Shown piece by piece: positions 1 through 63,420 of a stretch of 64,000 bases of DNA. This DNA is from Lutjanus erythropterus (Eukaryota > Chordata > Actinopteri > Lutjaniformes > Lutjanidae): NCBI GenBank assembly GCA_020091685.1, contig CM034607.1, forward strand, positions 5,003,130 through 5,067,129, given 5' to 3'. The stretch's first letter is position 1; every line of letters starts with the position of its first letter. The notes below the pieces were generated by a model. It saw only the letters and a program-made list of their open reading frames with translations. It was not told the origin of the DNA and did no database searches. Both the position numbers and the translations under genes were made by a program.

Positions 1-240
1 CTTACTTGGACCTTTGAATGCAAGTTTATTTATAAAAAGAACAAAGACGGGACTATTAACAAGAACGCAGTGATTTGTACCTTTGTGTATTCAATTGATT
101 AGTCATACACTACAATTTTGTAATGTCCTAGAATTCAAATTTTATTTGGGGACCTTTAGCAGATATGAGATTAAATGCGATTAATTTAATTAATTACAAA
201 TCCTGTAATTAATTAGATTAATTTTTTAATTACAGCACTA
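1..240. mobile_element. Terminal fragment of a hAT-like element (TAGTGCTGTCA-type end)
   Basis: The AT-rich stretch carries AAATGCGATTAATTTAATTA followed by a TAATTAATTAGATTAA block and ends in ACAGCACTA at 232-240. I recognise this as one terminus of a common vertebrate repeat whose TIR reads TAGTGCTGTCA. The other end lies before the window, so no target duplication can be paired. Superfamily (hAT) is inferred from the terminus style only. Confidence 0.4.
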
Positions 241-248
241 TTACTATA

Positions 249-448
249 TATATGACGACATCGTCACCTCCTTCATGAGTTTGTTCTCATTTCACATTAC
301 TGAGCCTCTACTGGAAACAAGTATTTCAACAGAGAAGGCCACGCAGCAGTGACTCATAGGGCATTAACACAACTCCGTATGAACAGACAGTCTCGATGGC
401 TGTGTACAAACAGGCACATTGTGCCACTATTACTCATTACACTATGAT

Positions 449-493
<45 letters not shown>

Positions 494-684
494 TAATGAG
501 TAATAGTGGCACAATGTGCCTGTTTGTACACAGCCATCGAGACTGTCTGTTCATACGGAGTTGTGTTAATGCCCTATGAGTCACTGCTGCGTGGCCTTCT
601 CTGTTGAAATACTTGTTTCCAGTAGAGGCTCAGTAATGTGAAATGAGAACAAACTCATGAAGGAGGTGACGATGTCGTCATATA
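249..684. repeat. Perfect long palindrome with AT-dinucleotide loop
   Basis: The left arm 249-445 and right arm 488-684 are reverse complements over about 197 bp; I found no mismatch when comparing them by eye. The 42-nt spacer is essentially an (AT)18 run plus a few bases. Arms are of mixed composition, so this is a true inverted duplication and not low complexity. No second copy occurs in the window. It could extrude as a cruciform, or fold as a long hairpin if transcribed. A palindromic MITE with TA flanks, a recent inverted duplication, or a foldback assembly artefact would all look like this. Confidence 0.95.
451..486. repeat. (AT)18 microsatellite
   Basis: Uninterrupted AT dinucleotides forming the loop of the palindrome at 249-684. 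Confidence 0.95.
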
Positions 685-1735
685 GCAACATGTACAGACA
701 TAATGCATGAAGCAGGTGTCATGAGCTTTGGTTAATCTTGTGTCTGACCCATTCATATGACACTACAGTCACAGGTTCACCTCCTGTTGCCACTGATCAC
801 AGACACTCTAGTTTCATAATGTTACTGCCAAACCATAGACCTGCACATTTCTGCGTCCTCTCACTTTGTTATATCTTGTTCTTGTTAAGATAAGTTGGTT
901 ACTTGCTTTAATTAATTATTATTCATATGTTTATTTTGTGCAGAGATTATGGTATAAAAATGGTTGGAGATCAGTTGATCACTGGTTTTAAAATAAACAG
1001 TTAGATTATGAAACTAGAATACTTATATGTAATTTATTCTGACTGATATGAAATAAGTTACTAATACTCAAATAAATTACAGTAACAATTTGCATGGATA
1101 TTTCTGGTTAGACTGAAAGTAAAATAAATAAGTGAGAATAATTAGAATAATTAAATGAAGTAATTTGACCAGTTAATAGCACCACAATTTGTGTAACTCT
1201 AAAAATCTTGTGGGATTTAATCAATTACGGATGTGTTTGGAATTACTTAAACAGATCCATGCAAATGTTACCTTCATTTTTTTAAGTTGAGCCAGTGTAT
1301 TCTTTTTTAGACTGTTGATCTTTTTGTATCATAGTTTTATTTTTTTGAACATCACTTTTTCCACAATGAGTGTTTTTTTTTCCTCACATTATTTAGTTTT
1401 TCTTTGGAACACCTTCCCTCCCTCCCAACCATCGATAAACTCTAAGCCATCAGTGTAGGTAAGACAATAATAATAATTTATAAAAATGATATCAGTAATA
1501 AAAATAAGGCACCATTTATACAGAGACACATACTCATGTATATAAATGTATGCATACATGCCTGTGTATCAGCTGTGAAAGAGAAAACTAAAAACTGAAA
1601 CACTAAATGTAACAGTGAGTTGAGGTATAAATATGTAGTTATGTTTGTTACATAATCAGACCATACAGTCTTATTTTATAGCAGCCTTAGATCTCCCAAT
1701 CATTGATAAACGTTATAATTCAAAATTCAACAGCT
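685..1735. other. Gene-free AT-rich stretch
   Basis: No open frame or recognisable repeat. T-runs near 1370 and a partly repeated segment (CAACCATCGATAAAC near 1428; CAATCATTGATAAAC near 1697) are the only structure seen. Confidence 0.5.
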
Positions 1736-3034: not shown

Positions 3035-3455
3035 TTCAGCTTCTTGTCCTCAGTTTCTTTTTATGTCTTTTTTTGTTTGTTTGTTTTTATATCTTTTACA
3101 TCTTGGTATGTATTTTTGTCTTGTTACTTCTCTTATGTCCTTACATATTTTTTGTCTTGTTACATCTCTTGCATCTTGTTACTCCTTTTATGTCTTGTTT
3201 CGTCACTTTTGTCGTTACGTTTTTTATGTTCTGTTACATCTTTTTTTGTCTTGTTATGTATTTTACATCTTGTTTTGTCTTTGTCTTGCTTCGTCTTTTA
3301 TGTCTTGTTACAACTTTTATATCTTGTTACATCTTTTTCTGTCTTGTTATATCTTGTTCCCTCTTTTATGTCTTATTACGTCTTGTTATGTATTTTACAT
3401 CTTGTTATATCTTTTACATCTTGTCTCATCTTTTACGTCTTGTGACATCTTTTGA
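3035..3455 (+). repeat. T-rich minisatellite (TTTTGTCTTGTTACATC-type)
   Basis: About 420 bp of degenerate 15-25-bp units built from TTTTGTCTTGTTACATC. Strong strand asymmetry (T/C-rich top strand) leaves all three forward frames open for 130-145 codons, giving Leu/Phe/Cys/Ser-rich pseudo-proteins. The same unit forms the core of the hAT-ended elements at 4529, 11280, 13380 and 41180, but I see no hAT end flanking this array. Confidence 0.85.
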
Positions 3456-4528
3456 GAGATTTTAACTATGTTTTTAACCATGCACAGATTTGCTGGAAAA
3501 TGTTTTGTTGTTAGAGATTGGTTAGTAGACACTGCCTCTGATTTATACTGCTGCAAGGACGGGTAGTAAATGGACTTTGTGCTGAGATTTTTATCTCAAC
3601 TGCATGAGTGTAGTTTTACATGTATACACTGTAAAATGTCCTCATCAAACCTTGGAAATGTGGATTAAGAATTGATCATATGACAGTGCATGGGTTGGGG
3701 TTTTGTCTGAGCACTGATGCGTGTGTTTGGGCTGTGCACGTGAGGTGGATGCAGTTTTCCAGATAGCAAGTCAATAAAACTGAGCAGAGACAGCAAATAT
3801 AGCCAGAGACACTGTTTACAGGCCCTGTAGTCACCTTTTGTGATGAACGTCCCTCCCTGTGTGAAAGATAAATCAATGAAGACAGTGTATAGAAGATCTT
3901 TTCTTCTTTTATCCTGTTTATCTTTCACCTCTCGCAGCTGTCCAATTTTTCAAAATGGCAACAGAATTACTGCTAAGAGGAGCCTTTTTACATGTGGGTT
4001 ACTCTGTGTTGGTATCAGTTATTACATTTATTGAAATGGTTAATTATTACAATCCTTAATGAGCTATTACTGTAGCGTTATGGCCTGTATTTTATCATTT
4101 GGACCTGGCTCCTGTTGTTTGTACATTGAAGTGAACGTGGTCTGGAGCTTCAGTTACAACAGTCCTCAGCCGCCCCAGCTGACACATCGACCTGGCAAAG
4201 TTTTGGCAACGTGCTCAGACTCACTCTGCTTGTTGCCCAAGACTAGTTGTGAACTTAGTGCCGAGAGCACAGGGTCCAGTTTGCTATTCTTAGCACTCTT
4301 GGAATGCTGTTTCTCCGCCCTGTTATTTTGTTTGCTCTCTCTTCACTTCGGTCATGTTAGGAAACTTGTGTTTGGCCTGGCTGCTCTCAGCCGGGATAAC
4401 AACCCGCCCCCGGGGCCTGTGACGTGCAGCTGGACTGTTGTGGGGAAGAGGAGTCATGATAGGGTGAATAACAAGCTGCCTGCTGGTGACTTTTAAAGGA
4501 AATCCCTGGATGTTGTGAAGCCTATGTG
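3456..4528. other. Gene-free stretch with a GC-richer patch
   Basis: The 4080-4490 part is less AT-rich than its surroundings and holds a 145-codon open frame (4059-4496, +) with many Cys, Ser and Leu residues and no recognisable domain. It might be a diverged exon, UTR or regulatory element, but the sequence alone does not decide. 3456-4050 holds nothing recognised. Confidence 0.35.
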
Positions 4529-5250
4529 CAAAGGTCCACGCAGTCTTTACTCACATAGAAGTACAGATACTTGTGTAAAACATTACTCTGGTAAATGTAC
4601 TGACTCAACTTCTTTATTCAAGTAAAAGTTAAAAAGGACAGCCTCTGAAATGTACTCAAGGGATAAAAGTAAAAAGTTGCCCTTCGTCTGTTACATCTTA
4701 TTACATCTTTTATGTAGCTTTTCATCTTCTTACATCTTTTTGTCAAGTTTTACATTGTTTTAATCATTAATCTTGATACCTTTTGTTACATTTTGTCATG
4801 TCTTGTTACATTTTGTTACGTCTTGTTACAATTTCTTATGTCTTCTACATCTTTTTCTTCTTATTATGTTTTGTTACATCTTTTTTTGTCTTGTTAGATC
4901 TTTTACATCTTGTTACGTCTTTTCTGATGTCTTTTTTGCGCTGATGGATACACCAAGGAATCATGTTTTCTATGTGTTATTGTTCCATCCATTCAGGTTG
5001 ATATCAGTCTTGATGTTGAAAGGTGGCACACAATGATGCAAAATAAAAATAACCAATAATTCCCCTCAAATGCATTAACACTTAAGTAATGAGCCTGTTG
5101 GAGTAGAAGGAATAGAGAGTGCAGATATCTATATGAAAAAGTAGGAAGTGAAAGTAAAAAGTTGCCAGAAAAGTAGATACTTAAATAAAGTACCTGAAAA
5201 CTCTTTAAGTACAGTAACTACGTGTTTGTACTTTGTTACTTCCTCCTCTG
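4529..5250 (+). mobile_element. hAT-type composite element with minisatellite core, copy 1
   Basis: The 5' portion carries TTACTCACATAGAAGTACAG, TTCAAGTAAAAGT and TGAAATGTACTCAA motifs. The centre (about 4690-4930) is a TTTTGTCTTGTTACATC array. The 3' part holds GCTGATGGATACACCAAG and AAGTAGATACTTAAATAAAG, ending TTACTTCCTCCTCTG at 5250. The same layout recurs at 11280, 13380 (reverse) and 41180. The short repeated AGTACTT/AAGTAAAAGT motifs and CAGAGGTG ends resemble hAT elements of the Tol2 type. No transposase coding capacity remains, and the 5' CAGAGGTG has decayed in this copy. Confidence 0.65.
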
Positions 5251-11279: not shown

Positions 11280-11960
11280 CAGAGGTGGCAAAAGTGCACA
11301 CATTCTTTAGTAAAAACTTCTAGAAAAAGTACTGATTCAATTTCTTTACTCAAGTAAAAGTGAAATTGTACAGGCTCTGAAATGTACTCAAAGTATAAAC
11401 GTAAAAAGTAGCTAAATGAACCTCACCTTTTCTCTGAGGTCATGTCTTCCTGTCTGTTTTGTCTTGTTACATCATTTTCATCTTTTTACGTAGTTTTTGT
11501 CATGTTGCATCTTTTAAGTTGCTTTTGTCTTGTTATGTCTTATGCGTTTTGTTACATCTGTTTTGTTTTGTTGCATCTTGTTAGTATCGTGATGGGTTTC
11601 TTTTTTACGTCTTTTTTGTTGTTTTTGTCTTGTTACGTCTTTATCATTTTGTTATGTCTTTTGTGTATTGTGAAGTCTTTCTTTTCCTTTTTTTTTTTTG
11701 TCTTGTTATGTCTTTTATCTTGTTTTTGTGTTGGAATTTTTAATTGCACCATTTCTTGCTACGTCTTTTTTGTCTTATGTCTTTTACGTTGATTTCATCT
11801 CATCAGGTTCAATGCCTTAAAAGTCAAGTAACTAGCCTGTTTTGAAAGTGTAAGGCATAGGAAGTACAGATAGTTGTGTTAAAATATACAGAGTAAAAGT
11901 TATCAGAAAAATAAATACTCAAGTAAAATACAGATACCTACTTATTCAAACAAAAAACTT
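11280..11960 (+). mobile_element. hAT-type composite element with minisatellite core, copy 2
   Basis: Starts with an intact CAGAGGTGGCAAAAGTG terminus at 11280, followed by TACTCAAGTAAAAGTG and TGAAATGTACTCAAAG. The core 11445-11800 is the TTTTGTCTTGTTACATC array, whose 116-codon frame (11442-11792) is an artefact. The 3' arm has CAAGTAACTAGCCTGTTTTG and TACTCAAGTAAAATACAG, but the terminal CACCTCTG is lost. CAGAGGTG followed by repeated AAGTA motifs is typical of Tol2-like hATs. The copy is non-autonomous. Confidence 0.75.
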
Positions 11961-41179: not shown

Positions 41180-42270
41180 CAGAGGTGGTGAAAAGTGCAC
41201 ACATTCTGTGCTCAAAAAGTAAAAAAGTAAAAAAGTAAAAAGTCGTCCCCTGAAAGGACATTTTTATCTTTTTAAAGCTAACTGAAGCTCACCTTTTCTC
41301 TGTGGTCAAGTCTTCCTCTGCCGTCTTATTACATCCTTCACGTAGTTTTTAGTGTCAATACCTGTATTTGCAGCATTCTTTTACATTGTTTTTTGTCTTT
41401 TACATTATTTTTTACGTTTTGTCTAGTTACATCTTTTTGTCTTATTACATTTTTTTGTCCTGTTATGAGTTTTACAATCTTTTTTTGCCTTGTTATGTCT
41501 TGTTTGTTTAGTTGTTTTGTCTTTTTCACATTATGTCTTATTTATCTTGTTACACTGTTTTTTATTTTGATATGTTTTTTATCTTTTAAATAATTTTTTA
41601 TGTTTTTTGTCTAGTTACATTTTTTTGTCTCGTTATCTTTTTCTGTCTTGTTATATCTTTTTTGTCCTTTTACGTGTTTTACAATCTTTTTGCCTGTTAC
41701 ATCTTGTTTGTCTAGTTAGATGCTTTTGTTTTTTGTCTTTTTCATCATGTTATGTCTTTTTTGTGTTGTTACATCATTTTTGCCTTGTTGCGTCTATCTA
41801 ATTGTTATGCTGTGCACTGATGGATACACCAAGAAATCATCTTTTCTATAATACGCAATAATACGCACAAGCAATAATACGCACAAAAAAAGACAACCAA
41901 ACACAAAAAACAATAATTCCCTCAAATGCATTAAAACTAAAGTAACAAGCCTGTTTTGAAAAAGTAAGGACTATAAAGTACAAATATTTGTGGTCAAATG
42001 TAGGGTAAAAGAGCACGAGTAAAAGCAAAAAGTTGGCTTAGAAAAATAAACAGTAAAATACAGATAATAATCTTAATCTTGCAGTTGTTATCATACATTT
42101 GTGAATCAGTTAATGCACCCCACAGTGCAAGTTCATGTCTAGGTGCATCTTTCCATTGGCTCTAAGATTTTTCTGATAGATTTTTTAAAATTTTTTACTT
42201 TTCAGAGTTTTTTTTTTTTTTTTTACATTTACTTATCGTATGTATGTACAGAATATTTCTGCCACCACTG
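41180..42270 (+). mobile_element. hAT-type composite element with minisatellite core, copy 4
   Basis: Intact left terminus CAGAGGTGGTGAAAAGTG followed by CACACATTCTG and AAAAAGTAAAAAAG units. The core 41330-41800 is the TTTTGTCTTGTTACATC array. Then TGATGGATACACCAAGAAAT (as in copy 1 at 4945), AGTAACAAGCCTGTTTTGAA and CAGTAAAATACAG. CCACCACTG at 42262-42270 may be the decayed right end. Short Phe/Leu-rich frames inside are artefacts. Confidence 0.75.
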
Positions 42271-62026: not shown

Positions 62027-62876
62027 TGTGCATTTTGCCGGTTGCATTCAGAATATGTATTTGTAAGTCAACTGACAGAAATTGAAAAAGCAATCATGTA
62101 TGTGAAAGTCTGCATTGGTAGAATAGGCTCTCAAATGGCCTGCCAAAGAGCCATTTGCTTCCATGAGAGCAGTTGTGACTAATACAAGTTCAGCTCAAAA
62201 TGCATTCAGAGGTAATATTAAAACCAATCATTCACAGTGTGACTGATGGCATCTGAACACATTTTATTTTCCATAGACTGTATTATATTCATAGGGTAGA
62301 GGAATGAAAAAAATGACCACAGAAACAGCATCTGTTTCCTTAGCGTACACGGAAGACGTGTGTGATTTTGTTTTTCCAGTTCTCATGGATGAACCATTTT
62401 TACCCCTGAAAATTGTATTTTTGTAGTTATCAGATGGTGACATTGTATCAGCTTCTGGTGAAATTATCTAGAACACATTTAACTCAATTAATAGAATATT
62501 AATGCTGATTCTTGGCCACAACAAGTATATCATAGTATGCCAAGTAGCATACTGTAGCAGTATCAAGACAATTTATCATTAACAACACAGGGTTGCACAA
62601 CAAAAATGTTATAGTCCCTTCATGCTACACACAGACAATATGTACAGATAGTTACATTTTGAATAGAACAGGATAAAAATATGAAATAAATTTACATTTA
62701 CATTGCATCTTGCATCAAACAGCAGCAACAAGATAGTTATACTAATATGGTCATCACCTTCCTGAAAAATTTTAACATCTGGGAGAAATTCTCCATCAAC
62801 TTTGACTGCATTTCAACATGAAGCATCAATCAGTGTGAACAGTCCACCTCCACTTCTTCTACTGGAGTCTTACTGA
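61120..62876. other. Gene-free stretch of about 1.75 kb
   Basis: Includes the GT microsatellite at 61992-62026. 61121-61210 has TTACATAATTTGTGTATG-like text related to family K. The rest is unassigned, and short frames lack domains. Confidence 0.4.
61992..62026. repeat. (TG)n microsatellite
   Basis: About 17 TG units. Confidence 0.95.
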
Positions 62877-63420
62877 TATATACCATAATGTAGTAAACAG
62901 AGGTGTATTATAGTATACCATAATGTAGCAGGCTGTAGTGTACTATAGTATACCCTAATGTACTAAACGGTACTACATTATATTATACCATAATGGAGCA
63001 AACTGTAGTGTATTATAGTATACCTTAATGTAGCACACTTCAGTATACTATAGTGTGCCATATTGTAGCAACCTGTAGTGTACTATACCATAATGTAGTA
63101 AACGGTAGTACATTATATTATACCATAATGGAGCAAACTGTAATATTCTATAACATACCATACCATACTGTAGAAATCTGTAATCTGTAGTGTGTAGCAA
63201 ACTATGTATTATTTGTATGTAGCAAACTATAGTGCATTACAGTATACGATAATGTAGTGTACTATAGTATGTCATAATGTATCATACTTAAGTACACTAT
63301 TATAACATAATGTAGTAGACTGCAGTATAGTCTATTACACCATTATATACATACACTGTATATAATGTATGTATATTCTAGAATTATAGAGAATTATACT
63401 GTAGCATAATATAATACATA
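62877..63420. repeat. AT-rich minisatellite (TATACCATAATGTAGYAAACTGTAGTGTA)
   Basis: About 545 bp of 25-50-bp degenerate units built from ATACCATAATGTAG, AAACTGTAGTGTA and TATTATAGTA. A higher-order unit of about 140 bp is suggested because ACTACATTATATTATACC + ATAATGGAGCAAACTG occurs twice (62973 and 63107). Each unit contains its own partial inverse (TACTATAGTA, TAGTATACTA), so the array can fold back. Confidence 0.85.

Follow-up and report, generated by a model that had tools for sequence, protein, structure and literature searches.

The window (the whole 64,000-nucleotide stretch analysed here, C17:5003130-5067129) carries an exact palindrome at 249-684, and three further palindromes were found on C3, C7 and C24 of the same assembly (937.6 Mb, 444 contigs). 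The axes of all four are AT-rich. We consider it likely that these palindromes are foldbacks through a self-complementary AT run, produced during assembly or gap filling. The sequence-only reading of the window had offered a very recent origin, gene conversion between the arms and an artefact as options; the artefact fits best, with a very recent inverted duplication as the main rival.

Structure of the palindrome

The same reading had described exact arms of about 197 bp closed by an (AT)18 loop, and this description was confirmed, the arms at 249-445 and 488-684 being exact reverse complements. The axis lies at 466|467 and symmetry is lost at 248/685. As listed in Table 1, the centre is AT-rich, and two mismatched pairs were observed beside the axis (446 G/487 T and 450 G/483 A). 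The arm has a GC content of 0.43, and the palindrome ends read TATA on either side. Throughout the remainder of the window the longest exact half-palindrome was 8 bp, against 7-10 bp in 20 Markov sequences as long as the window; a chance origin of the 197-bp arms is therefore excluded. Its RNA fold was strong (z = -57.7), which is due to the symmetry alone.

Table 1. Features of the window (window coordinates) and the three further palindromes (contig coordinates). Arm lengths at C3, C7 and C24 are counted to the axis, half the AT run included; on the same count the window arm is 218 bp.
Feature	Location	Strand	Remarks
End of high-copy TIR-type repeat X	1..241	+	87-92% identical to 15 other copies, varying with the stretch aligned
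TA-rich tail of X	242..253	+	left outer edge of the palindrome falls inside
Left arm	249..445	+	197 bp, exact reverse complement of 488-684
Axis	446..487	.	42 bp, AT-rich: GATAG(AT)18T; pure (AT)18 run at 451-486
Right arm	488..684	-	197 bp, exact reverse complement of left arm
Right flank	685..900	+	no other genomic locus found in the genome search
C3 palindrome	C3:38371476-38372287 (L100/L060/L101)		exact, 2 x 406 bp on (AT)17
C7 palindrome	C7:42131267-42132058 (L108/L102/L109)		exact, 2 x 396 bp on (AT)17
C24 palindrome	C24:12746278-12748985 (L015 4261-6968)		exact, 2 x 1354 bp, AT-rich axis

Genomic setting and copy number

The palindrome adjoins the end of repeat X, for which the stretch at about window 150-253 was found at no fewer than 39 other loci (40 of 574 candidates scored). 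In the 15 copies aligned, the terminal sequence is CAGCACTA, and a TA-rich run lies directly beyond it. The ends of X read TTAGGGCTGTCAG and CTGACAGCACTAA with TA runs flanking them (L013 about 4054-5179; window 1-241), and by eye the opposite X end TTAGGGCTGTCAG in L013 likewise lies beside a TA run. The sequence-only reading had placed a hAT-like end at 240; a transposon-like repeat does end there, with at least 39 other loci, and we call it TIR-type only. For the transposon-associated inverted duplication proposed with it, the support consists in adjacency only: the TA tail of X adjoins the palindrome, but no X-like end was recognised by eye at the edges on C3, C7 or C24.

Exactly 2,500 N immediately precede base 1 of the window, so that the palindrome begins 248 bp away, although this N run is not necessarily an assembly gap. 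Five multi-base N runs were seen, each of them in a locus retrieved for a copy of X.

When the arm was searched against the 937.6-Mb genome (query 253-446, E up to 10, very common words skipped), only the two arms themselves were returned and no second locus was found. This does not suggest a multicopy MITE, and the ordinary MITE with hundreds of copies genome-wide, which had been named as an alternative, is not borne out by the same-genome search.

Three further AT-centred palindromes

The longest of the four palindromes, that on C24, was met by chance in a locus retrieved as an X copy. A scan of the X neighbourhoods together with the window (169 kb without N) gave five inverted repeats, three of which, composed mostly of two dinucleotides, were filtered out. 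In a search with 1240 of the 1354 arm bases, matches elsewhere were found in short pieces only. About 4.3 kb upstream lies a direct copy of the left flank (96%); its homology to the flank breaks off 4 bp ahead of the left palindrome edge.

The C3 palindrome allows the added arm to be told from the original. Its right edge is spanned collinearly by three paralogous stretches on C3 (84%, 70% and 76%), while its left flank is a dispersed repeat for which all 36 matches listed break off at query 92-97, with the edge itself at 97 (40 of 1192 candidates scored). As the paralogs cross the right edge and the repeat homology stops at the left, the left arm is the added copy, joined to the repeat. The comparison with the paralogs thus marks the outer part of the right arm and its flank as the original. 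The arm also includes a piece of a dispersed repeat. The paralog L107, considered as a candidate for the empty site, matches the outer arm part only and does not reach the axis, so that it gives the orientation and not the original AT run.

At the right edge of the C7 palindrome, the inverted copy ends at a lone N, followed by an AT run ATATATATATATATACATATATATATTGCAG (ATATATATATATATAC...) and then by the far flank. This is the sole isolated N in the 264 kb (L012-L109) that we read from the genome in addition to the window and the search hits. The locus resembles a single AT run divided by the insertion of a left-arm copy in inverted orientation. The outer 163 bp of the arm were searched and found only at C7, and a search across the left edge gave the locus itself and one short flank match only.

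Survey of AT tracts and control stretches

The pattern G(AT)17 gave 155 genome matches, and the 100 places listed were merged into 86 distinct loci. Of these we read 65, namely the 60 at the head of the list and five picked for close opposite-strand matches. The picked loci were read across 146-186 bp only. Sixty-three of the 65 tracts could be judged, L058 and L082 having too little flank on one side. The C3 palindrome came from the unpicked loci (1 of 60) and the C7 palindrome from the picked ones (1 of 5), so that the combined figure of 2 of 65 is a biased estimate of the palindrome rate.

Both palindromes of the survey have exact arms, and no clear diverged palindrome, with inverted flanks of mixed composition, was seen among the 63 judgeable tracts. 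The sole candidate is L073, where a weak inverted match of 33 bp at 82% might be an aged palindrome. The imperfect inverted matches in L046, L051, L074, L086 and L098 lie within AT/TATG-like low-complexity sequence. L066 has an inverted match of 29 bp at 83%, and the remaining ones measure 28 bp or less.

The tracts at C3 and C7 are both 34 bp long and that of the window is 36 bp. A length of 34 bp was recorded for five tracts out of the 65, two of these being picked; among the unpicked 60, three have 34 bp and one of them is palindromic. The computed chance that both palindromes fall among the five shortest of 65 tracts is 0.005, a value that is too small because C7 is among the picked loci, whose close opposite-strand matches favour short tracts. 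It should be further pointed out that 34 bp is the minimum of the pattern, and therefore palindromes on shorter AT runs may be missed. In twelve 10-kb stretches at round-number positions (120 kb), there was neither an inverted pair with arms of at least 40 bp nor any N.

Origin of the palindromes

As (TA)n is its own reverse complement, a DNA end in a living cell can turn back inside it, and so can an assembler, a gap-filler or a read. Before such an event, the locus in the window would probably have consisted of X, one (TA)n run, a single arm and the right flank. A contig end, a gap-filler or a chimeric read would have entered (TA)n from the arm side and exited along the arm's other strand, which would leave the arm duplicated in inverted orientation around the AT run. 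A false overlap would then have closed this copy, in the window between TATAT and the TA tail of X. The join would have been made by software or library chemistry and not in the animal. By analogy with C3, and considering the TA tail of X, the left arm of the window is best read as the inverted copy; the right arm, continuous with the right flank, is presumably the original. C3 is the only locus at which the added arm is directly identified, and this weakens the generalisation.

The arms are exact at all four loci except for the two axis-adjacent pairs in the window, so the copy shows no independent divergence, as an assembly foldback would predict. The recurrence at four loci supports a foldback artefact, as does the fact that repeat homologies stop at or near the outer edge at C3 and C24, although a genuine duplication would likewise stop repeat homology there. 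We prefer the artefact because of the lone N at C7, the N run near the window palindrome, the edges that coincide with repeats or lie close to them, and because no clear aged example was seen. The tract lengths of 34 bp (C3, C7) and 36 bp (window) would, as weak evidence, also fit a graph overlap of similar length. False duplications separated by gaps or due to wrong gap filling, as well as false chimeric PacBio palindromes, are described for vertebrate assemblies (PMC9516828). Foldback reads make up about 0.55-0.6% of ONT genomic data (PMC12870357).

The strongest rival, possible if rather unlikely, is that the palindromes are real and arose very recently by snap-back duplication. Breakage or stalling within (TA)n would let the self-complementary 3' end fold back and prime copying of 0.2-1.35 kb of the arm, after which the copied strand would unfold and be joined to the other end, where a remnant of (TA)n would stay. 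The AT-rich axes of all four loci, the remnants of AT runs seen at the far edge of the window palindrome and of the one on C7, and the TATAT common to the window edge and the tail of X (a microhomology) agree with these steps. Exact arms, AT axes, AT remnants and repeat homology ending at the edges are predicted by artefact and snap-back alike.

Several points count against the artefact. The edges at C3, C24 and the window carry no N, and this absence at C3 and C24 agrees with snap-back. A simple foldback read would not reach the different flank; therefore a second wrong join is needed, and this need for two wrong joins at each locus speaks for snap-back. An exact copy should not contain the two mismatched pairs of the window, unless these arose as consensus errors or differ between alleles, and their confinement to axis-adjacent positions favours copying in vivo. 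Moreover, N need not mark an assembly gap, all five multi-base N runs lie in X loci, and a genuine palindrome would also break the assembly nearby, so neighbouring N runs are no proof. The inverted match at L073 (33 bp, 82%) could be an aged palindrome. In the study that gives the ONT figure, foldback reads are virtually absent from PacBio HiFi data (PMC12870357), and the bearing of this on the artefact depends on the platform behind this assembly.

Other points count against snap-back. The lone N stands at the C7 edge, and repeat homologies end at or near the C3 and C24 edges. No clear aged example was found in the 63 judgeable tracts. On the side of snap-back, long perfect palindromes are short-lived, which could explain the absence of old ones. 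Foldback priming is moreover a studied process: in yeast without Mre11 nuclease activity, priming at inverted repeats of 3-15 bp with fill-in by Pol delta is supported (PMC10622511). Short template switches that often yield perfect inverted repeats are described for great apes (PMC7954356). Against snap-back, the longest perfect inverted repeat reported in human (spacer up to 8) has arms of 140 bp (PMC13155455).

Rather unlikely as well, to much the same degree, is that the genome harbours a persistent group of exact and very young inverted duplications, 0.2-1.35 kb in size, in each of which a self-complementary (AT)n run breaks, snaps back, copies its flank and is rejoined. Such a germline process would keep making long hairpins that are seen only while young, since the products are unstable.

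It is very improbable that the contigs of two haplotypes were joined head to head across the AT run, with the arms as two alleles. Allelic variation could account for the two differences next to the microsatellite, and the 96% copy of the C24 left flank about 4.3 kb away might be a haplotig, but no further difference exists in 197 bp, nor in the 406, 396 and 1354 bp elsewhere. Insertion of a palindromic MITE or foldback transposon at TA hardly deserves credence either: the inverted-repeat structure and the TATA at both ends would suit it, but no second arm locus was found, by eye the four palindromes have no end motif in common, and on C3 paralogs run collinearly with the arm and flank of the palindrome there. 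A TA or TATA target-site duplication would look the same as the palindrome ends or the tail of X.

If the preferred reading as assembly foldback is right, AT-run foldbacks repeatedly give rise to false palindromes, false hairpin-RNA loci and false duplications here, and may do so in other assemblies built alike; scanning for exact AT-centred palindromes would then be a cheap quality check. If the palindromes are real, (AT)n runs seed long inverted duplications in the animal germline, and the four loci make this reading directly testable.

Comparison with known systems

Palindromic AT-rich repeats (PATRRs) have arms that are AT-rich throughout. In contrast, the arm in the window has 43% GC and AT is confined to the axis, so that the likeness lies in the AT-rich centre and the near-perfect symmetry. 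PATRRs are known from human translocation breakpoints (abstract of PMC3197554).

The false duplications and chimeric palindromes of PMC9516828 resemble ours in the undiverged copy and, for two of our four loci, in an N at the edge (C7) or close by (window). However, the palindromes described there measure 7-17 kb, the length of raw reads, while those described here have 0.2-1.35 kb per arm, are centred on an AT run and are closed into different flanks. As in the foldback-primed inverted duplications of PMC10622511, the fold would be seeded by a short self-complementary sequence; the yeast cases lead to dicentric chromosomes, whereas here a small insertion is seen with both flanks kept. The short-range template switches of great apes share local reverse-complement copying and perfect inverted repeats, but PMC7954356 describes them as mutation clusters, and here the arms span hundreds of bases.

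Other features of the window

A phage origin was rejected since no match was found in the phage collection, and a virus origin was rejected when one 27-base piece of the arm gave no match in viral contigs. No Rfam family matched the window at the gathering score, none of the 10 window ORFs scanned (out of 29 with at least 110 codons) reached a curated Pfam cut-off, and a PDB sequence search with one window ORF gave no match.

Diverged tandem arrays of related TTACATCTTTTATGTCTTG-type units occur at window 3087-3453, 4687-4923, 11610-11725 and 41377-41666. By eye, reverse-sense repeats resembling these arrays are also present at about 3600-4140 of L015. In addition, window 62871-63162 is a tandem array with units of 35, 70 and 135 bp.
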